A stretch of 64,000 bases of DNA from Bacteroidota bacterium (lineage in GTDB: Bacteria; Bacteroidota; Bacteroidia; Chitinophagales; Chitinophagaceae), in the NCBI GenBank assembly GCA_013285905.1, contig JABDGU010000009.1:1-64000 (forward strand). Reading direction: 5' to 3'. Made by a program: the position numbers and the translations under genes. The notes below the pieces were generated by a model. The model searched no databases and had not been told where the DNA came from. It saw only the letters and a program-made list of their open reading frames with translations. Positions 39,179 through 63,474 of this stretch are shown here, one piece after another; position 1 is the stretch's first letter, and each line of letters opens with the position of its first letter.

Positions 39179-41524
39179 ATGAAGCAGTATTTGCATTGCC
39201 TTTTTCTTCTTTTTTTTCTTTATTTTTCATCATTGGGTCTTGCGAATCAGAACCTGTTTGCTCAAATGCCCCTATGTTCAGGGCTAGGCTCAGGGTTAAT
39301 TTATAGTGTGGGTGGGCCAGGTGGTTCAACTATTTATAATTACGACCCATCCTTACCTCTTTCTTCCACTAATCCATCCCTTAATGCGCTCCCCCTTAGT
39401 GGCGTAGGAGTAGCCTTAGCTGTATCAGAAAACCTGAATGGTGTGGGGCCTTCCCCTACTTTCTATTCTATTGCTGATTCTGCCGGAATGCCTTGCTATA
39501 TTTATTATAACGGTACAAACTGGGTGAATACAGGACATTATATTGGGGCATCCTTAGCAGGAACAGGGATAGGTGCCGGTGGTGGGTTTATCTATGCTAT
39601 TTTGAGCAATAGCATTTATAAATATGACGGCACCGGTAATGCAAGTTTCCTTTTAGCTTTACCTGTTGGCTCCCAAATCACATATGATATTGCAGTGGAT
39701 TGTGCCGGCAATTTTTATATACTAAATGCATTTTATGGAGGGGGGTGGCTGAACGAATATAGTTCAAGTGGCAGTTTAGTTAATGCATGGACAACAAGCG
39801 GTATTCCCATGGGTAACGCTGGAGGTAGTTTAGCTATTGTTGGCAACCAGATATATTGTTTGTATGCTTCAGTTGTTGGAACTTATACTTTAGGTTTATT
39901 AAGCGGAACTATCAGCAATAGCAGCAGTAATATTAGTTTTAGCTTTACGGCTACATCTGCTTTTTCAGGTAGCACTGATTTTGCTTCCTGCCCCTTCGGC
40001 AATAATATAGTTATGGCCAATACAGATACGGCCTATTATAATTGCGGCAGCGGGCTGGCAGATAGCCTGAGTGCCAGCGGCATAGGGCCTTTTAGCTGGG
40101 CTGTGCTTAGCGGACCTGCCGTGCTAAACGGAAGTGGAGATAGTGTTACTGTGAGCAGCACCGGCCTTTCCACAATTGTGTTAAGTACATCGGCTTTTGC
40201 GCCCTGCGCTAATACAGATACTGTTACTGTAATACCATATATAAGCCCGCCAACAATGAACAGCAATAGCCCGGTGTGTACAAATGGGAATTTGGTATTG
40301 GGAATTGGGAATTTGCTGGCCGGCGCTACTTATAGCTGGACAGGACCAGGCGGTTTTGCAAGCGCTAATCAGAATGCAACTGTTTACAATATACAATTAG
40401 CGGATTCAGGTTATTATACTGTCAGAGATTCCCTGAATGGCTGTGTATCTTCAGACAGTATTTTAGTAAGCGTGCTGCAAAGCCCTTTGACGCCGCAGGC
40501 TAGCCATAACACGCCCTGCGCGGGTGATAGTTTGGGCCTGGCAGTAAACAGTCCACAAGCTGGCTGCACATTTAGCTGGAGTGGGCCACAGGGTTTTAAT
40601 GCTAATGCGGAGGACACTTTTATAGCCCATGCGCAAAGTGGCAATGCGGGCAATTATATACTTACTGCACACCTGAATGGCTGCACCAGCCCTGACACTA
40701 CGCTTGTTATTGTAACACCCACGGCAGGGCCGCCCATTATACAAATAGCAGGCGTACCTACCGATACCATGTGCATAGGTGGCAGTCTGAGCCTTGATGC
40801 CACGGCAACGAATGCAGGCAGCGCGCCTAGCTACCAATGGAAGAAGAACGGGAGCAATATAATAGGGGCAACAAACGCAAGCTATACCACAAGCGGACTG
40901 AGTAATGGCGACATAATGAGTTGCGAAGTAAGAGGCAATGCCACCTGCCAACCAGTGGACACGACCATAAGCGCAGGACTGTACATACATGTGCTGCAAT
41001 TATCGCCGCCAAGTCTCAGCCTTAGCATTTTTCCGCTTATATATACCAACGGCCAGCTTGTAACCTTTTCGAGCCATATACCTGCAGGCAGCACAGGTAT
41101 ATCTTACCAATGGACAAAGAATGGCGTGGATATTGCAGGCGCCATACAACCCACTTATTCAAGCACGAATTTAAGTTTGAACGACACTATCTGCCTGATC
41201 GTTTATGACCATTTGCAATGCACGGAACCTGACTCTGTGATAGCTTGTGTGGAGCTGACGAATGGGATTCCCCCCAGCCCCCTGAAGGGGGAGTTTGTGG
41301 TTTATCCGAACCCTGTAACGAATCAGTTGACAATTCAGATTGCTGGTCAGGCGAGCAACAATGGCGTAAAGATATTTGATATGGTGGGGAGGATAGTTTA
41401 TAGTGGGTTCATCAGTCAAAACAAAACAATTGTTTCTACAAGTGATTTTTCTTCGGGTGTTTATTTTGTGCAAGTGCTATCTGCGAATGGGGATAAGGAA
41501 ATAGTGAAGGTGATAAAGGAATAA
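39179..41524 (+). CDS. T9SS-secreted protein with Ig-like/PKD repeats
   Basis: 781 residues. Signal peptide about MKQYLHCLFLLFFLYFSSLGLANQNLFA. Residues 30-270 form a beta-rich propeller-like domain (GGSTIYNYDPS, DIAVDCAGNFYILN). From about 285 there are four or five Ig-like/PKD repeats of about 80 residues, each with paired Cys (NSPVCTNGNLV...DSLNGCVSSDSI; PCAGDSLGL...LNGCTSPDTT; MCIGGSLSLD...ATCQPVDTT). C-terminal type A sorting domain: VVYPNPVTNQLTIQI through YFVQVLSANGDKEIVKVIKE. It is exported by the type IX system to the cell surface or medium. The linker before the sorting domain (PPSPLKGE) is REP-derived. Confidence 0.88.
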   Translation: MKQYLHCLFLLFFLYFSSLGLANQNLFAQMPLCSGLGSGLIYSVGGPGGSTIYNYDPSLPLSSTNPSLNALPLSGVGVALAVSENLNGVGPSPTFYSIADSAGMPCYIYYNGTNWVNTGHYIGASLAGTGIGAGGGFIYAILSNSIYKYDGTGNASFLLALPVGSQITYDIAVDCAGNFYILNAFYGGGWLNEYSSSGSLVNAWTTSGIPMGNAGGSLAIVGNQIYCLYASVVGTYTLGLLSGTISNSSSNISFSFTATSAFSGSTDFASCPFGNNIVMANTDTAYYNCGSGLADSLSASGIGPFSWAVLSGPAVLNGSGDSVTVSSTGLSTIVLSTSAFAPCANTDTVTVIPYISPPTMNSNSPVCTNGNLVLGIGNLLAGATYSWTGPGGFASANQNATVYNIQLADSGYYTVRDSLNGCVSSDSILVSVLQSPLTPQASHNTPCAGDSLGLAVNSPQAGCTFSWSGPQGFNANAEDTFIAHAQSGNAGNYILTAHLNGCTSPDTTLVIVTPTAGPPIIQIAGVPTDTMCIGGSLSLDATATNAGSAPSYQWKKNGSNIIGATNASYTTSGLSNGDIMSCEVRGNATCQPVDTTISAGLYIHVLQLSPPSLSLSIFPLIYTNGQLVTFSSHIPAGSTGISYQWTKNGVDIAGAIQPTYSSTNLSLNDTICLIVYDHLQCTEPDSVIACVELTNGIPPSPLKGEFVVYPNPVTNQLTIQIAGQASNNGVKIFDMVGRIVYSGFISQNKTIVSTSDFSSGVYFVQVLSANGDKEIVKVIKE
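41278..41291. repeat. REP palindrome CCCCCT-GA-AGGGGG inside the T9SS gene
   Basis: 6-bp stem, translated in frame as PSPLKG between the last Ig repeat and the sorting domain. Same family style as 2496-2575. Confidence 0.65.
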
Positions 41525-42286: not shown

Positions 42287-42793
42287 TTATTTCAAGCCCA
42301 GTTTTGCTTTTACGAGGCCCAGGACGTTGTCGCCATCCTTGCCATACAATATAGCCTGCTGTGCGGTATCGAAAATATAGTCATAACCTTTTTCTTTGGC
42401 TACTTCTTTAATTGCCTTGTCTGCTTTCTCCAGCAGTGGTGTATAAACTTCCTGCTTTTTCTGCCCTACTTTTTCCTGCGCACTTTGCGAAAAACTTTCT
42501 ATACGCGCCTGGAGGTCCTGTATCTCTTTTGCCTTCACTTCCTTAATAGCATCTGTCATTGTTTTTTCGCCGGCCTGGTACTGCTGTATTTTGGTCTGGT
42601 ATTCCTTCTGCATAGCCTCGCCTTCATCCTGGAATTGCTTGGCATATTTCTGCAGCATGGTATCGGCCTTAGCACGTTCCGGCATAGAAGCTAACAATTC
42701 CTGGGAGTTGATATACCCGAGTTTAGGTGATTGTGCGTAAACAAAATTGCCTATTAAGAGGCCGCAGATCAGTACGAGGGAAAATCGTTTCAT
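42287..42793 (-). CDS. OmpH/Skp-family periplasmic chaperone (paralogue 3)
   Basis: 168 residues: signal peptide MKRFSLVLICGLLIGNFVYAQ then the OmpH domain. The YINSQELLASMPERAKADTMLQKYAKQF start and long central coiled coil (DLQARIESFSQSAQEKVGQKKQEVYTPLLEKADKAIKEVAKEKGYDYIFDT) give the Skp tentacle fold, a trimeric holdase that carries unfolded outer-membrane proteins. About 75% identical in recognisable blocks to the upstream paralogue at 42954, so it is a tandem duplicate. A separate hairpin terminator lies before it. Confidence 0.92.
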   Translation of the reverse strand: MKRFSLVLICGLLIGNFVYAQSPKLGYINSQELLASMPERAKADTMLQKYAKQFQDEGEAMQKEYQTKIQQYQAGEKTMTDAIKEVKAKEIQDLQARIESFSQSAQEKVGQKKQEVYTPLLEKADKAIKEVAKEKGYDYIFDTAQQAILYGKDGDNVLGLVKAKLGLK

Positions 42794-42953: not shown

Positions 42954-43475
42954 TTATTTAAGGCTTAATTTCTGTTTTACGATCGGCATTATATTATCTC
43001 CATCTTTGCCATACAACAAAAAGCCCTGCCCTGCATCGAAAATGTAATCGTAATTCTTTTCTTTGGCAACATCTTTAATGGCCTTATTGGCTTTCTCATA
43101 TATAGGGGCCAGCACTTCCTGTTTCTTCTGCCCTACTTTTTCCTGAGCGCTTTGCTGAAAACTTTCTATGCGTGCCTGCAGGTCCTGTATCTCCTTCATC
43201 TTCACTTCCTTAATAGCATCGGTCATGGTCTTTTCTCCTGCCTGGTATTGCTGCCCCTTGGTTTGATATTCTTTTTGCATGGCTTCGTACTGGTCCTGGA
43301 ATTGTTTGGCATATTTCTGAAGTGTAGTATCAGCTTTGCCGGTTTCGGGCATGGCAGCCAAGAGCTCCTGGGAATTAATATATCCAAGTTTCAAAGGGGC
43401 CGAACTGCCCTGCGCCCTTGCGATATTGCCAAGCGACAAAAGGCTACAGCTAAGTATTAATGCGAAACGTTTCAT
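42954..43475 (-). CDS. OmpH/Skp-family periplasmic chaperone (paralogue 2)
   Basis: 173 residues with a signal peptide ending in LGNIARAQG. It has the same layout as paralogue 3: LGYINSQELLAAMPETGKADTTLQKYAKQF, coiled-coil arm, then IKDVAKEKNYDYIFDAGQGFLLY. The two differ mainly in the signal peptide and a few positions of the arm. It should work as a holdase for BamA substrates, consistent with bamA upstream in the same cluster. Confidence 0.92.
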   Translation of the reverse strand: MKRFALILSCSLLSLGNIARAQGSSAPLKLGYINSQELLAAMPETGKADTTLQKYAKQFQDQYEAMQKEYQTKGQQYQAGEKTMTDAIKEVKMKEIQDLQARIESFQQSAQEKVGQKKQEVLAPIYEKANKAIKDVAKEKNYDYIFDAGQGFLLYGKDGDNIMPIVKQKLSLK

Positions 43476-43528: not shown

Positions 43529-44069
43529 CTATTTATTGTTATTATTGCTGTTACTATTAGTTACACCCAGTATTTTCAACACATCGTCACTCCTGTCCAG
43601 TTTAGGGTCGGCATAAAACAGGGTAACACCACCCGCTTTGTCCAGCACTATATCAATAGCTTTGCCTGTTGCCATTTTTTGCACTGCGTTAAACACTTTG
43701 TCCTGTATGGGCTTTACCAATTCCTGGCGTTTTTTAAAGAGGTCGCCTTCGTAGCCAAACCTTTGTTTTTTGCAGATCTTTGGCGTCTTTTTCTTTGCTT
43801 ACTATTTCGTCTTCGCGTTTTTTGCGCATATCGTCAGTAAGCATAGGTCGCTCTGCCTGGTAAGCCTTATACATCCTGTCCACCTCTGCCATCCTGTCGT
43901 CTATCTCTTTTTGCCATACTTTCGACACATTGTCCAGTTTGATCTGGGCGTCTTTGTAATCGTTTAATTTATCCAGTATGTATTTGGAATCTATTGTGCA
44001 ATACTTCTGCGCAGTAGCTACTGTGGCAAAGGCCAGCATCAGCGCTAAACTTGTTATTATCCTTTTCAT
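43529..44069 (-). pseudogene. OmpH/Skp-family gene (paralogue 1) split by a frameshift
   Basis: Two adjacent frames together form one Skp: an N-terminal piece (44069-43734; MKRIITSLALMLAFATVATAQKYCTIDSKYIL, coiled coil) and a C-terminal piece (43720-43529; LVKPIQDKVFNAVQKMATGKAIDIVLDKAGG). At the break the first frame reads DLQKTKVW; with one A fewer in the run 43766-43771 it reads DLQKQRFGYEGDLFKKRQELVKPIQ and joins into about 180 residues. The third member of a tandem triplet, it is either inactivated or affected by a homopolymer error. The C-terminus ends in an unusual Asn/Ser run (NSNSNNNN). Confidence 0.78.
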
Positions 44070-44170: not shown

Positions 44171-46834
44171 TTATTCCGGCTCGAAACCTAACATGAAGGT
44201 GAACTTGGCCATATCTGTAAGCTTGGTTACACCGTTTACAGGATCGTACCTGTCAAAACCTACACCATAGTCAAGCCCGAGCATACCAAACATAGGAAGA
44301 AATATCCTTACACCCAAACCGGCATCCCTGTTCAACTGGAAAGGATTGAAGGACTTGAAATCACTCCAGGCATTGGCAGCATCAAAAAACGCGAGGCCGT
44401 ATATAGTAGCTGTTGGTGCAAGTGAGAAAGGATACCTTAACTCTACAGAGTATTTATTGAAAATGGTGGCATCCTGTGCATATACTTCATAACCACGCTG
44501 CGAAATGATATCCCGACCTATGAAATAAGAATAACCTGACAAGCCATCACCACCCAACTGGAAGCGCTCGAAAGGAGAGAAACCGATGCCGGAATTATAA
44601 TAACCGAGGAAGCCGTATTTGGTAACAAACCTAAGCACCAAGTTGCCTGTGAGGCGCTGGTACCAATCTGCCAGGAAACGGTATTTATGTTATTCTATCC
44701 ATTTGTATTTTTCCTGCGGGCTTTCGTTGGTATAATCTATGCCTGTAAATGCACTGTATGGCGGTGTGAACTGGAAGGTTAAGCTGATATTAGAACCGCT
44801 TCTTGGGTAAAGAGGCTGATCTATAGAGTTGCGCCCCAAAACGATCTTTGCATAAAGGTTGTTACTGAAACCGTCAGTAAAGTTCGGCACCAGTGCATAA
44901 TCTACCAGGCGGTAATTGTTATAATAAAGCCCGTAGGTAAGTATGCAAAAATCATCCGTCCATTTTATACGTTTGCTCATGGCAAGGCCGCCACCCGTCA
45001 TCCTGAGGTAAGAGAGATTAGGGTCGGTACCCACGGCTGATGCAGAGTATTTACTATACACAATATTCGCCGTCAGCGCATTGGGCCTGTGGCCACCCAA
45101 CCAGGGCTCGGTGAAAGAGGTGTTTAAGGAATTATAATAAGCACCGTTTGAAGAGTAGTTTATGGAAAACTTCTGCCCGTCGCCCACCGGCAATGGATCC
45201 CAGAATTTAGGTTTGAAGATATTCCGGATGGAAAAGTTATTAAAGATGATGCCTATGTTGCCATAAAAATTGATACCACCACCAAAACCTGCTGATAAGC
45301 TCAACTGGTCGCTTGATTTTTCTACTACGGTGTAATCTATATCCACGGTTCCATCTTCAGGGTGCGGCTTGGGTTGGATACCTATTTTTTGTGCGTCAAA
45401 AAAGCCTAATGTAGCTATCTCCCTTTGTGAACGAACCAGGTCTTCGCGGCTGAACTTATTGCCAGGCAAGGTGCGTAATTCCCTGCGTATCACATGCTCA
45501 TTCGTACGGTCATTGCCCGCTATAGATATATCCCTGATGGTTGCCTGAGAACCCTCGGTTATACGCATTTCAAAATTTATGGTGTCGCCTCCTGTTACGG
45601 AAGTTTCTGTTGGGTCAACATTAAAGAACAGGTAACCATCGTTCATGTAAAGGCTGCTAACATCTTCGCCGCCCTCTGGATTCAATTGACGACCTATGCG
45701 GGTCTCCAATAATTCCTGGTTGTATATATCTCCTTTCTTTATTGCCAAGACCCTTGATAATTGTTCGTCGGAGTATTTAGTATTACCCTTCCATGTTATG
45801 TCGCCAAAATAATACTCGTGACCTTCTTTTACCTTTATCTCTACATTGATATTGCCGTTTTCAACAGCGTACTCAGTGTCAGCAACAACAGAAGCGTCAC
45901 GGTAACCCAAAGAGTTATAATAAGTAACTAAAGACTGTTTGTCGTCTTCAAATTTCTGCGGATTGAATTTGGAGGAAGAGAATAATTTAAACCTGAAATA
46001 GGGTTCAATGGCATCAAGTGTTTTGGTGGGTGAAAGAAAACCGAAATTGCGGACATACTTGCCAAAAGAACGTTTGGTGCTACCATACACACTTTTCTCC
46101 GCAGGGGGATGCAATGTGAGGCGCATATTTTCTTTTGTCGATTTCAATGTGCGTTTCAGGCGCATTTCGCCTGCATGCTCATTACCGGCAATATTTATCT
46201 GGTTGATATGGGTTTTATAGCCCTTATCTATATTGAAGGTTAGTATTATTTTATTTACAGCCAGGGTATCGGGCCTTTCCGTTACAGTAACCTTGCACTT
46301 ACCATAGCCTTTATCGGTAAAAAATTTGGTAATGCGCACTACAGCTTCTTTCTTGGTTGCCTCTGTTACCACACGCTCTTTTACCAGTACCAGTTTTTCT
46401 TTCAGTTCTTTTGCTTCGCCGGGCTTTATACCTTTAAAGTTATACTTGCTCAGGCGCGGCCTTTCCTCCACACTAATGTTCAGGAACACCTTATTGTCAA
46501 TAAATTTTGTGATGGTGATGCTGGCATTCGAGAAAAACTCCTGTTTCCAGAGGTTGCGGATGGCCTTGGCAATATTTTCATCGTTCGGCAAATGCACTTT
46601 CTGGCCCACGCTGAGGCCTGTTACTGCCATCAGCAGTTCCTCATCAAGATATTTAGCGCCTGTAACCGTTATACCACCAATTTCATATTCCTTAGGCCTG
46701 TCTGCTTCTGCAGTGGCCGGGGCTAATGCAGAATGCATCCCTTTTCCGCCCTGCATGCCTATCTGCGCGTGCAAATGCAGCGTAGCTAAAACAGCAAGAA
46801 CTAAGAGGCAAAAATGCAAGGTCTTTCTATACAT
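44171..46834 (-). pseudogene. bamA: BamA outer-membrane assembly protein, one in-frame TAA
   Basis: Omp85-family insertase. It has a signal peptide from ATG 46834 (MYRKTLHFCLLVLAVLATLHLHAQ); a TTG at 46876 also lies in frame. Five POTRA domains (from EYEIGGITVTGAKYL to about residue 400) and a C-terminal 16-strand barrel follow. Codon 715 (44690-44692) is TAA where relatives have Tyr: PQEKYKWIE*HKYRFLADWY. The rest of the barrel continues in the same frame to 44171 and ends FTFMLGFEPE, so the full gene is about 887 codons. It overlaps uppS by 8 bases. BamA is essential, so this stop is either a sequencing error, or the cell has another copy, or the fragment is a relic. Confidence 0.85.
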
Positions 46835-47588
46835 GGTGGGGATCGTTCGTTTGAATTTGTTCACTTGTTTTGCCAAAGCGGCGTTCTCTTTGCTGGTAGT
46901 TCAGCAAAGCTTCATATAAATTCTGCCTCCTGAAAGCGGGCCAATGCACATTGGTAAAGTACAATTCTGCATAGGCCAGTTGGTACATTAAAAAATTACT
47001 TATCCGGTGTTCGCCGCTTGTTCGTATCATCAGTTCCGGATCGGGGAATGCGGCGGTATTGAGGTAGGAGTTGAAAAGCTTATCGTCTATTTGTACCGGG
47101 TTTATTTTTCTTTCAGAAATATCTACTGCAATATTCTTTACTGCTTCTACTATCTCCCAGCGGGAGCTATAACTTAAAGCAAGCACAAGGTTTAGCCCGG
47201 TGTTCATCGCGGTCATGCTTTTAGCTTCATCCAGTTCTCTTTGGCATATTTCCGGCAGACTTTTAAAATCGCCTATGACATGCAGCCGCACATTATTTTT
47301 TTTCAGCTCTTCAGCTTCCTTTCGTATCGTGTTCACCAGTAATTCCATCAGGGCGTCCACCTCGGTTTTGGGGCGTTTCCAGTTCTCGGTGCTGAAAGCG
47401 TACAGGGTAAGATATTCTATACCAAGCTCTGCACTGGCATTCACAATGTCCCGCACGCTTATCACCCCCTCATGGTGGCCATAAACACGGTCTTGTCCGC
47501 GCTCTTTTGCCCAGCGGCCATTGCCATCCATAACGATAGCTATATGCCGTGGCAGGTTGTTGCGGTCAAGAGATTGCAAAACATCCAT
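46827..47588 (-). CDS. uppS: Undecaprenyl-diphosphate synthase
   Basis: Cis-prenyltransferase that makes the C55 lipid carrier for peptidoglycan and surface glycans. 253 residues with all family blocks: catalytic Asp21 in HIAIVMDGNGRWA, LTLYAFSTENWKRP, and the C-terminal PDPELMIRTSGEHRISNFLMYQLAYAELYF followed by W-PxF-x-x-L. Full-length. It is the first gene of the uppS-bamA-skp-skp-skp cluster and overlaps the bamA start. Confidence 0.97.
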   Translation of the reverse strand: MDVLQSLDRNNLPRHIAIVMDGNGRWAKERGQDRVYGHHEGVISVRDIVNASAELGIEYLTLYAFSTENWKRPKTEVDALMELLVNTIRKEAEELKKNNVRLHVIGDFKSLPEICQRELDEAKSMTAMNTGLNLVLALSYSSRWEIVEAVKNIAVDISERKINPVQIDDKLFNSYLNTAAFPDPELMIRTSGEHRISNFLMYQLAYAELYFTNVHWPAFRRQNLYEALLNYQQRERRFGKTSEQIQTNDPHHV

Positions 47589-47859: not shown

Positions 47860-50556
47860 ATGCCTCTAAAATCTATCCTTAGGTTTTGCTTTGCATCATT
47901 AGCAATTATCTTTTGCCATAGCGCTGTAAGAGCACAATGTGGTTCGTGGAGTGTTGTTGGCCTGGGTGGATTTTCCGCAGGAGGGACAAGCAGTGCCCAT
48001 TTGGCATTAGATCATAATGATGTGCCATATATGGACTATGATGACGGGTCCGGTGCCACAATGATGAAATATAACGGAAGTTCGTGGGTAAATGTTGGAA
48101 ACACTGCTTTTTCAGGAGGGCAAGTGGAATATGTGGATATAGCTATTGATACGGCTAATATACCTTATGCTTCGTATGTGGACATAAACCATGGAACCAA
48201 AGTAAGTGTAATGAAATATAGTGGAAGTTCCTGGACTTATGTAGGTTCTCCTGGTTTTACAACACCGGACCCGGAGTTTGTAAGAATAGCCTTTGATAAA
48301 AATGATACACCTTACGTAGCATTTTCAGATCTTACTAATAATACTGCTACTGTAGAGAAATTTAATGGAACTTCCTGGGTGATAGTTGGTGCAGGGTATG
48401 GTTACGCCACGCATACCTGTATAGCAATTGATGGCTTTGGAACACCGTATGTTCTTTTCGCAGACTGGAACAATAGCGGAAAAGCTTCTGTAATAAAATA
48501 TAATGGGAGCTCTTGGGTGGCAGTTGGTTCTGCAGGTTTCTCGATGGCTGATATCAGTGATGAATCCATTGCAATTGATAAGTATAATACTCCTTACGTT
48601 TCTTTTAGAGACTGGGGCAACAACCAAAAGGCTTCTGTAATGCGATATAATGGAAGCAATTGGGTCTATGTGGGTAATTCAGGCATTTCCAGCGGGGCAG
48701 CCTTGCTTACTTCTTTAGCAATTGATGGAAATGCGACGCCTTATGTTGCTTATATGGATAGCTGGATTGCAGATCCTTGTTCGGTACAAAAATGGAATGG
48801 CACGTCGTGGGCATATGTTGGTCCACAAGGGTTTTCTATTCAAGACGTTGAAAACACAAGTATGGCCATCAATAAGAGTGGCGTGCCTTATGTTGGCTAT
48901 TCAGACTATAATTATAACTTAAAAACAACCGTGCAAAAATATCAACAAACTGTTACTATTGATTTACAGGACAGCCACATCAATATATGTGCAGGAACTA
49001 CAAGCGCCAGTATGCCATACCTCGATACCACCGGCGGCCCAACCCATTACAGCATTGCATGGACCTCTGCGGCCACAAGCGCCGGCTTTACCAATATAAC
49101 TAATGCAACATTCCCGGCAAATTCTTTTTCTATAGCTGTTCCGTCTACAGCAAGTCCCAATACCTACACCGGCAAACTAACGGTATCAAACGCAAGTTGT
49201 GATAATGGCGGGATAGAAATAAGCATCACTGTGAATCCCATTATTACTCCTTCTCTTTCTGTTACGGGCAGTAGCACTGTATGTGCAGGAAACCCATCCA
49301 CATATACTGCTAATTCAAATATTACGGCTGCAACATATCAATGGCAGCTAAATGGCAGTAATGTAGGAACAAATAGTAGCACCTATTCTTATACTCCTTC
49401 AAATTCGGATATTGTAAGCTGTATTACCACTATACCAAGCGGCTGCTTCACGTCTTCAAATCCGGACACCAGCAATAGTATTACTATCAGCATAAGCCCT
49501 TATACAACTCCAAGCCTTTCCATAAGCGGCAATAGTGCAGTTTGCTCAGGTACACTCGTTACTTATGGTGCTGCCTCCAATGTACCGGGTGCGACTTATC
49601 AATGGAAGGTGAATGGTAATAATGTTGGAACGAACAATAGTACGTATGCTTATAGCCCGGCAAACGCTGATATTGTAAAATGTATCACAACCATGCCCTC
49701 AGGTTGCTATACAGCCGATGCTGATACAAGTAACATTATTGTTATGGCCGTAACTGCAAATACTACACCTACTCTCTCTATTTCGGGTAGCAACACAATC
49801 TGTACAGGTTTGCAGGATACTTTTACAGCAACATCCAATGTTACAGGCGTAATATACCAATGGCAGGTAAATGGAATTAATGTAGGTAGTAATTCCAACA
49901 GTTACACTTACTCAGCCATCAATGCGGATATTATTAAGTGTGTCGCAACCATGCCGGCGGGTTGTTACACTACTGGTGCTGATACGAGCAACACTATTAC
50001 AATGACTGTAAACCCATATATAAGTCCTACCATTGTGCTTAGCGGACCGGGCATTGCTTTGCAAGGTAGTTCCGTAACCATTAGTGCAACATTAGTCAAT
50101 GCAGGGACTGCTCACAGCATTGAGTGGAAAAATCGCGGCACACCTTTTAACACCACTACTGTTCCATCTGTTACTTACACAAAAGCTACAGGTACGGATA
50201 CCATAACTGCTATTATTACAGTTACATCACCCGGTTGTTATAATACAGACTCTGCTCTGGGATGGGTAGTTAATGATAGCACTACAGGAGTAGGCACCGC
50301 CGTTTTTTCTAACCAAGAAATAATAGTTTACCCAAATCCATTCGGTGATCGTATTATTGTAAGCGGTTTGCGAGCAGGTGATAATGTATGTGTTTATGAC
50401 CTTTTGGGAAGAAAACGAACTATTACCAGGGAAATACAAAATAAGCAAGCCGAACAAAATTTCTCATTAAAAGAACTTCCTGTTGGTACTTATTTCCTGC
50501 ATGTATGGGATGAAAAAGGTAATACAATAGGTAATATTTCATTGCAAAAATTATAA
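47860..50556 (+). CDS. T9SS-secreted propeller plus Ig-like protein
   Basis: 898 residues. Signal peptide about MPLKSILRFCFASLAIIFCHSAVRA. Residues 25-350 contain seven repeats of about 46 residues, of the form WxxVGxxGFSxG...SIAIDxxNTPYVxYxD, with MKYNGSSW in between, consistent with a seven-bladed propeller. From about 360 there are four Ig-like segments (GSSTVCAGNPSTYTANSN, GNSAVCSGTLVTYGAASN, GSNTICTGLQDTFTATSN) with a conserved W-LNGSNVGTNSS-TY motif and pairs of Cys. The C-terminal sorting domain (VYPNPFGDRIIVSG ... TYFLHVWDEKGNTIGNISLQKL) is complete. Exported to the surface; probable adhesin or matrix protein. Confidence 0.87.
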   Translation: MPLKSILRFCFASLAIIFCHSAVRAQCGSWSVVGLGGFSAGGTSSAHLALDHNDVPYMDYDDGSGATMMKYNGSSWVNVGNTAFSGGQVEYVDIAIDTANIPYASYVDINHGTKVSVMKYSGSSWTYVGSPGFTTPDPEFVRIAFDKNDTPYVAFSDLTNNTATVEKFNGTSWVIVGAGYGYATHTCIAIDGFGTPYVLFADWNNSGKASVIKYNGSSWVAVGSAGFSMADISDESIAIDKYNTPYVSFRDWGNNQKASVMRYNGSNWVYVGNSGISSGAALLTSLAIDGNATPYVAYMDSWIADPCSVQKWNGTSWAYVGPQGFSIQDVENTSMAINKSGVPYVGYSDYNYNLKTTVQKYQQTVTIDLQDSHINICAGTTSASMPYLDTTGGPTHYSIAWTSAATSAGFTNITNATFPANSFSIAVPSTASPNTYTGKLTVSNASCDNGGIEISITVNPIITPSLSVTGSSTVCAGNPSTYTANSNITAATYQWQLNGSNVGTNSSTYSYTPSNSDIVSCITTIPSGCFTSSNPDTSNSITISISPYTTPSLSISGNSAVCSGTLVTYGAASNVPGATYQWKVNGNNVGTNNSTYAYSPANADIVKCITTMPSGCYTADADTSNIIVMAVTANTTPTLSISGSNTICTGLQDTFTATSNVTGVIYQWQVNGINVGSNSNSYTYSAINADIIKCVATMPAGCYTTGADTSNTITMTVNPYISPTIVLSGPGIALQGSSVTISATLVNAGTAHSIEWKNRGTPFNTTTVPSVTYTKATGTDTITAIITVTSPGCYNTDSALGWVVNDSTTGVGTAVFSNQEIIVYPNPFGDRIIVSGLRAGDNVCVYDLLGRKRTITREIQNKQAEQNFSLKELPVGTYFLHVWDEKGNTIGNISLQKL

Positions 50557-61785: not shown

Positions 61786-63474
61786 TTATTTGACCAAAGT
61801 CACAGGATGCACTTGCTTTTCGCCATTGCTGTTTTGCAGCACTATATAATACATGCCTCCCGCTATGCCCGAAGGCGCATTGTAAGTTATTTCGCCACTG
61901 CCGCCGGATAATGATTCTGTCTGGCAATCCATTAAGCGCCCATTTATATCATATAGCATCAAAGAGCCTGTGCCGGGCTGACCTGTGTTGGTATAATGGA
62001 CGGATATCTTACCTAAGGCAGGATTAGGAAATACGTAGCCAGTAAATGCAGGGCTGGCCGAAGACAATATATTATGCACCACTGTTGCTATGGTATCGTG
62101 TTGGTTGGTGAAACGCATACAGATGCCGGTGGCAGACAGTGTGTCGTAGCCGGCCAGTAGTATCTTGCCATCCGGCTCAATAGCGGCTGCGATGCAGAGG
62201 TCGTGGCGATTGGTGTCTCTTTGTGTTATTATCTGCCCGCCTGTGTTGAACGATGTATCCAGGTTGCCCGCTGTATCTAAGCGGTAAACTATGAACTTAT
62301 CGGTAAAGCCATTTGTATAATCATGGTAAATGTTTGATATGATCGCCCTGCCATCTTTTTGCACTGCAAAGGCATAAGAACCTGCATTTGCAACCGGCAG
62401 TTGCAAATAAGACACGCCATTATAACCATAAGTGCTTACCCTATGCCCATTCTGGTCTACTTTTATCACAGCGAAGTTTGAATCAGAGAATGGCGGCGTC
62501 CACCTGGCTATGTGGGCAAGCACATAACTATTTCCCATGCTATCAGCTGCTACAGCGTTGGCCTCGTAATCCTGGTTGGGGGCCTTGATGAGGGTGATGC
62601 CATTTGCCTCTCCAAAACTCATATCAGGGGAGCCATCTGTATCGTGCCTTACAATAAAACACTGGTAGGCATTATATATAGACCCACTGTCTGTAAACCT
62701 ACCCACAACTACAAATTTATTGTCATGCTGCATATACCCACATATCGCCGAAGCTTCATTGGGGCTGCTGCCTATTGGGGTATCCAGCATCTGGTAAGGG
62801 TCTATTTCTATCCCGGCTGAGCCATAGCTGGCATCAACGCTGCCATTGGGCTGCAACCTCGTCAAGCCATAAGTTTCAATACCATTTATCGACGTGCCTC
62901 CCATTATCACGATCTTGCCGTCGCTTTGCACGCCGCAAGCGTATGGATAAGAATATACCAGGGAAGTTGTAAGGCCAACCATGGCTACACCACCTGTGCC
63001 GAAGCTTGTGTTAAGGCTGCCATTGGAGTTGAAATTGAAAACAGACATATACTCCCAACCGGTGGAGATATCAAGCCATTGAGATGCCGTGATGATCTTT
63101 GAAGTATCGTATAAAGTAGCTGCAGACGGTGGCGTTTGTATATAGCCATGTGTGGCAACTACTTTACCCGAGTCATTAAATGTAGAATCAAATGTGCCGT
63201 CATAATTCAGCCGCATCACTTCCACAGAGGTGGCATAGTAAATGGAGCCTACTAAAACAATTTTATTGTCCAGCTGGGGCAGCACAAATACAGGGCGGTG
63301 TATAATGCCGGTGGCAATATTGCCCTGAAAGGTATCTATGCCGGTATGAGCAAAACCGGTGTCGAGGAAAAAGTGCTGGGCCTGTGCCGCGGGCACCAGG
63401 CAGCAGGCAGACAATAAGAAAATAGCAAAAAAGCGAAAGGGCTTCTTAATATCAGTATTCATCAAACAAATCAT
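61786..63474 (-). CDS. T9SS-secreted delta-60 repeat protein
   Basis: 562 residues. Two candidate ATGs at 63474 and 63462; the second gives a cleaner signal peptide (NTDIKKPFRFFAIFLLSACCLVPAAQA). Delta-60 type repeats of about 55 residues are visible, of the pattern MRLNYDGTFDSTFNDSGKVV, FNSNGSLNTSFGTGGVAMVG, RLQPNGSVDASYGSAGIEID, RHDTDGSPDMSFGEANG, RLDTAGNLDTSFNTGGQI, forming a beta-propeller. The C-terminal sorting domain is YVFPNPALGKISVHYT ... YYIVLQNSNGEKQVHPVTLVK. Exported by T9SS; function unknown. Confidence 0.9.
   Translation of the reverse strand: MICLMNTDIKKPFRFFAIFLLSACCLVPAAQAQHFFLDTGFAHTGIDTFQGNIATGIIHRPVFVLPQLDNKIVLVGSIYYATSVEVMRLNYDGTFDSTFNDSGKVVATHGYIQTPPSAATLYDTSKIITASQWLDISTGWEYMSVFNFNSNGSLNTSFGTGGVAMVGLTTSLVYSYPYACGVQSDGKIVIMGGTSINGIETYGLTRLQPNGSVDASYGSAGIEIDPYQMLDTPIGSSPNEASAICGYMQHDNKFVVVGRFTDSGSIYNAYQCFIVRHDTDGSPDMSFGEANGITLIKAPNQDYEANAVAADSMGNSYVLAHIARWTPPFSDSNFAVIKVDQNGHRVSTYGYNGVSYLQLPVANAGSYAFAVQKDGRAIISNIYHDYTNGFTDKFIVYRLDTAGNLDTSFNTGGQIITQRDTNRHDLCIAAAIEPDGKILLAGYDTLSATGICMRFTNQHDTIATVVHNILSSASPAFTGYVFPNPALGKISVHYTNTGQPGTGSLMLYDINGRLMDCQTESLSGGSGEITYNAPSGIAGGMYYIVLQNSNGEKQVHPVTLVK

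Follow-up and report, generated by a model that had tools for sequence, protein, structure and literature searches.

The bamA gene of this Bacteroidota genome is interrupted in the assembled sequence by an in-frame TAA at codon 715, and the frame beyond it encodes the last part of the barrel in an intact and constrained state. As read from the sequence and its relatives, the interruption is very probably an error of the consensus in a small patch or, in a less likely form of the same explanation, a rare dead allele that entered the assembly. A second break, in the adjoining ompH/skp gene, lies close by.

The bamA locus and its in-frame stop

The gene occupies 44171–46834 on the minus strand of the window (the whole stretch of DNA that was analysed, 64,000 nucleotides), from an ATG at 46834 to a natural TAA at 44173–44171. 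When its open reading frame is translated through the interruption, the product passes the curated BamA model of NCBIfam (TIGR03303, 306.1 bits against a cut-off of 297.15) and contains five POTRA stretches identified with Pfam. The part after the stop matches Pfam Omp85 (50.1 bits); the whole read-through is not listed for that family. The solved chains that match the read-through best are 9hj3 and 9hiv, which both carry the name outer membrane protein, and 9n2d (Bam A, surface antigen D15). One unbroken reading frame, as expected of a BamA, is not present: codon 715, counted from the ATG, is TAA (44690–44692, minus strand), and the translation around it reads ...SPQEKYKWIE*HKYRFLADWYQ.... 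The sequence-only reading of this DNA had reported this stop, and translation of the minus strand confirms it at 44692–44690. A total of 28 query proteins, including some from the same genome, align across the stop in frames that are open apart from it, so it is not a chance stop. The frame goes on past it for 172 sense codons (44174–44689); the figure of 173 given previously counts the terminal TAA. Upstream of bamA on the same strand is an intact uppS (undecaprenyl diphosphate synthase, 46827–47588, with matches to PF01255 and TIGR00055), and three OmpH/Skp family genes lie downstream.

In the available text of PMC12578637, the BAM complex of Bacteroidota has an essential core made up of BamA, BamD, and BamG; that of PMC8546649 gives BamA as essential in Bacteroidales, and that of PMC12611786 reports BamA depletion. 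The present gene has in common with the Bacteroidota BamA of PMC12578637 and PMC12611786, so far as the available portions of those papers describe it, the POTRA stretches, the barrel, and, on read-through, a passed BamA model, but it differs at codon 715, which the assembly gives as a stop and where 9hj3 has Tyr in the corresponding column. If real, the interruption would be a surprising departure from the rule that BamA is needed. As the sequence stands, it matters for annotation: automated gene calling will yield a shortened BamA and a skp in two pieces for this species, and this bamA should be left out when draft genomes are surveyed for the loss of essential genes. Our literature search found no paper that combined premature stop codons with assembly errors in genomes assembled from metagenomes.

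Codon 715 in relatives and constraint on the frame

From 58 matched relatives, 29 came back as loci (1 from the same genus, 27 from the same family, and 1 from the same order); one relative, G018, matched only the first 117 residues of the query. The equivalent of codon 715 specifies Tyr in 23 of the 29 relatives read and Phe in the other 6, and it is a stop in none, so that the previous statement that related barrels have Tyr is nearly right. The same-genus genome, itself a metagenome-assembled genome, has TAT at this codon, and its BamA is 90% identical in protein sequence over residues 375–901 of the query. A second set of 80 loci from named genomes, which shares members with the set of 29, covers the codon in 78 cases, two loci falling short of it, and these comprise 68 with Tyr, 9 with Phe, 1 with Leu, and 0 with a stop. 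The TAA is private to one genome among the relatives read.

Comparison with the same-genus copy gives a dN/dS of 0.035 for the 172 codons past the stop, 0.036 for the 234 codons of the barrel before it, and 0.021 over all 353 comparable bamA codons before the stop; these values are rough because dS between the two genomes is near saturation (2.0 to 3.0). For this reason an amino acid test that is independent of dS was also made. Of the sites that are invariant among the other relatives, this bamA is changed at 0 of 42 beyond the stop and at 2 of 67 before it, and so falls within the range of the intact relatives (0–4 past the stop and 0–9 before it). The bamA gene is not measurably decayed around the stop, and the sequence beyond it, described earlier as strong barrel sequence, is intact and constrained and has the Omp85 match.

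A second break in the adjoining skp gene and the state of the assembly

The first of the three ompH/skp genes (43529–44069, minus strand) is split by a frameshift that the sequence-only reading did not mention. Its opening part, which has an OmpH match in Pfam, and its last part occupy different frames, as judged by a frame break relative to 31 query proteins, and the difference is one extra A. The frameshift is placed at a run of six A residues on the minus strand (43766–43771), where the frame of the relatives fits five. The second and third ompH/skp genes, at 42954–43475 and 42287–42793 on the same strand, are intact (OmpH, 119.6 and 115.5 bits). In the first gene, there are 5.5 nonsynonymous differences in the 67 codons after the frameshift and 14.5 in the 100 codons before it. 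On the sequence comparisons for both genes, the bamA stop and the skp frameshift would be either very young or absent from the organism itself. The distance between them is 919 bp; by post hoc arithmetic, the chance of so small a gap is approximately 1.5% if the two accepted interior breaks in the 123.5 kb compared fell randomly. Large secreted repeat proteins are encoded on the plus strand to either side of this group of genes, at 39179–41524 and 47860–50556, and their ends, examined by eye, resemble what we take to be a type IX secretion sorting tail.

The genome assembly comprises 129 contigs and 2.5 Mb and is 60.8% complete, with about 39% of the genome missing. A survey of breaks was made with the proteins of relatives as the ruler, by which 123.5 kb were comparable out of 446.7 kb of the genome scanned. 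It yielded 13 events, of which 4 were accepted, namely the two breaks described above (in bamA and skp), a frameshift in nth, and a gap of N residues. The nth frameshift, in which five A residues have become six at positions 165–170 of contig 5 (L210:165–170), is near the contig start and is the same kind of fault as that in skp; the gap is a 10-N filler at about position 162 of contig 12, where a relative has 6 bases. The remaining 9 were not accepted, being antisense frames, regions that precede a start codon, or matches to a single genome, a judgement made by close examination for the event near position 2500 of the window and from the printed lines for the rest. Frame breaks at 37.7 and 38.3 kb were weaker, in alignments of 43–55% identity, and were likewise not accepted. 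No in-frame stop other than that of bamA was accepted in the 123.5 kb compared. The remainder of the compared interior is nearly clean, and the assembly is not sloppy throughout. In a reverse control, the loci of the relatives were scanned (451 kb, with overlapping loci counted more than once) and gave 9 events, 4 of which represent one antisense place; two stops in a repeat protein and one frame break near the end of a same-genus contig may be real. Because some of these events may be real, other drafts would appear to have breaks too.

A chimeric patch at the bamA stop was considered and rejected, there being no step in composition or in identity to the same-genus genome at this point. The GC content varies between 0.38 and 0.47 over 41.5–48 kb, and identity to the same-genus genome varies between 0.63 and 0.85 per 150 columns, with minima near 43.5 and 44.1 kb that fall between genes. 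The 14-base word around the stop has a single occurrence in the 444 kb checked.

Explanations for the interrupted frame

Three explanations had been offered for the stop, namely a base error, a rare recoding event, and a relic next to a functional copy elsewhere, and the results favour the first; the second and third gained no positive support. An error is most likely because the stop is private to one genome and there is no sign of decay, and it is further favoured by the presence of a second private break so close by in a draft assembly that has the same kind of indel elsewhere. The organism would in that case possess one normal bamA, or have possessed it until very recently; the TAA would most likely be a wrong base in the assembled consensus at codon 715, and the neighbouring skp would have gained its additional A in the same small faulty patch. 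We infer that the cause was thin coverage or faulty base-calling and that the two breaks share it; less likely, the assembly may have caught a rare dead allele of the population. In the available text of PMC3711429, homology-supported frameshift singletons are expected to be sequencing errors, and the breaks described here have in common with such singletons their occurrence in one genome only and protein homology on both sides. That work, in the portion available, covers frameshifts, a class that the skp break fits and from which the bamA break differs in being a nonsense substitution. It also speaks for an error that all three broken genes (bamA, skp, and nth) are conserved, since errors hit such genes blindly. 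Against an error stand the location of the patch in the interior of a 66.7-kb contig, unlike the faults in nth and at the N gap, the otherwise nearly clean state of the compared interior, and the absence of a step in GC content or same-genus identity at the stop.

It is unlikely that the stop is instead a real and very recent nonsense mutation, either in a dying bamA relic whose intact counterpart lies in the portion missing from the assembly or in a short-lived subpopulation. The missing 39% leaves room for a second bamA, and a young relic would likewise show no decay yet. However, the search for another Omp85/BamA that had been proposed was made by protein query, which matched only the gene in the window within the 2.5 Mb of this 60.8% complete genome, and most of the 58 relatives have one full-length BamA match by the same kind of search, so that a spare copy is not the rule. 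An Omp85 family search of the genome found three other hits, which are TamL (contig 19) and two barrels of approximately 400 residues (contigs 64 and 53); because it missed the bamA of the window itself, this search is not a complete screen. The copy in question also adjoins uppS and the three ompH/skp genes and is under full constraint, and the break in skp next door would need a second event.

Recoding, in which UAA would be read as an amino acid through a suppressor tRNA, a changed code, or local readthrough, is highly improbable. The open and constrained frame past the stop is what it would predict, and local folds are slightly more stable than those of shuffled sequences (12 and 10 of 200 shuffles were equally stable). 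A general change of the genetic code is ruled out because the end of bamA is itself TAA, whereas under reassignment TAA would be a sense codon throughout and never a terminator. Furthermore, no other in-frame stop was accepted in the sequence compared, no relative read has a stop at codon 715, and a TTA anticodon occurs in 0 of the 25 tRNAs that were typed by ARAGORN among 27 Rfam matches in this incomplete genome. Recoding would also leave the skp frameshift unexplained. The least probable explanation is that BamA is split, with the last part of the barrel made separately from TTG 44641 and joining the first part. A 156-codon frame with this TTG as its start does extend over 44641–44171, but the TTG is 16 codons past the place of the stop codon, so that the conserved residues between them would be lost; no relative read shows a split here, the frames were listed mechanically, and chance alone can be expected to supply a TTG. 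A combination in which both breaks, in bamA and in skp, are genuine and fixed in a living lineage is scarcely more credible; a working outer membrane would then depend on readthrough of this one UAA or on a two-piece BamA, and the second and third Skp would replace the first.

The two tRNA matches that were not typed are a weak match and a copy of tRNA-Arg(TCT) that carries two inserts. The latter, which is the upstream of two copies, differs from the intact copy only by two near-palindromic inserts of 20 bases each, the first in the D loop and the other beside the anticodon loop, a pattern that was found neither in the window nor in 387 kb of further sequence. The two copies, at 62185–62298 and 62565–62638 of contig 8 (L398:1501–1614 and 1881–1954), flank a small GIY-YIG gene (58 bits).
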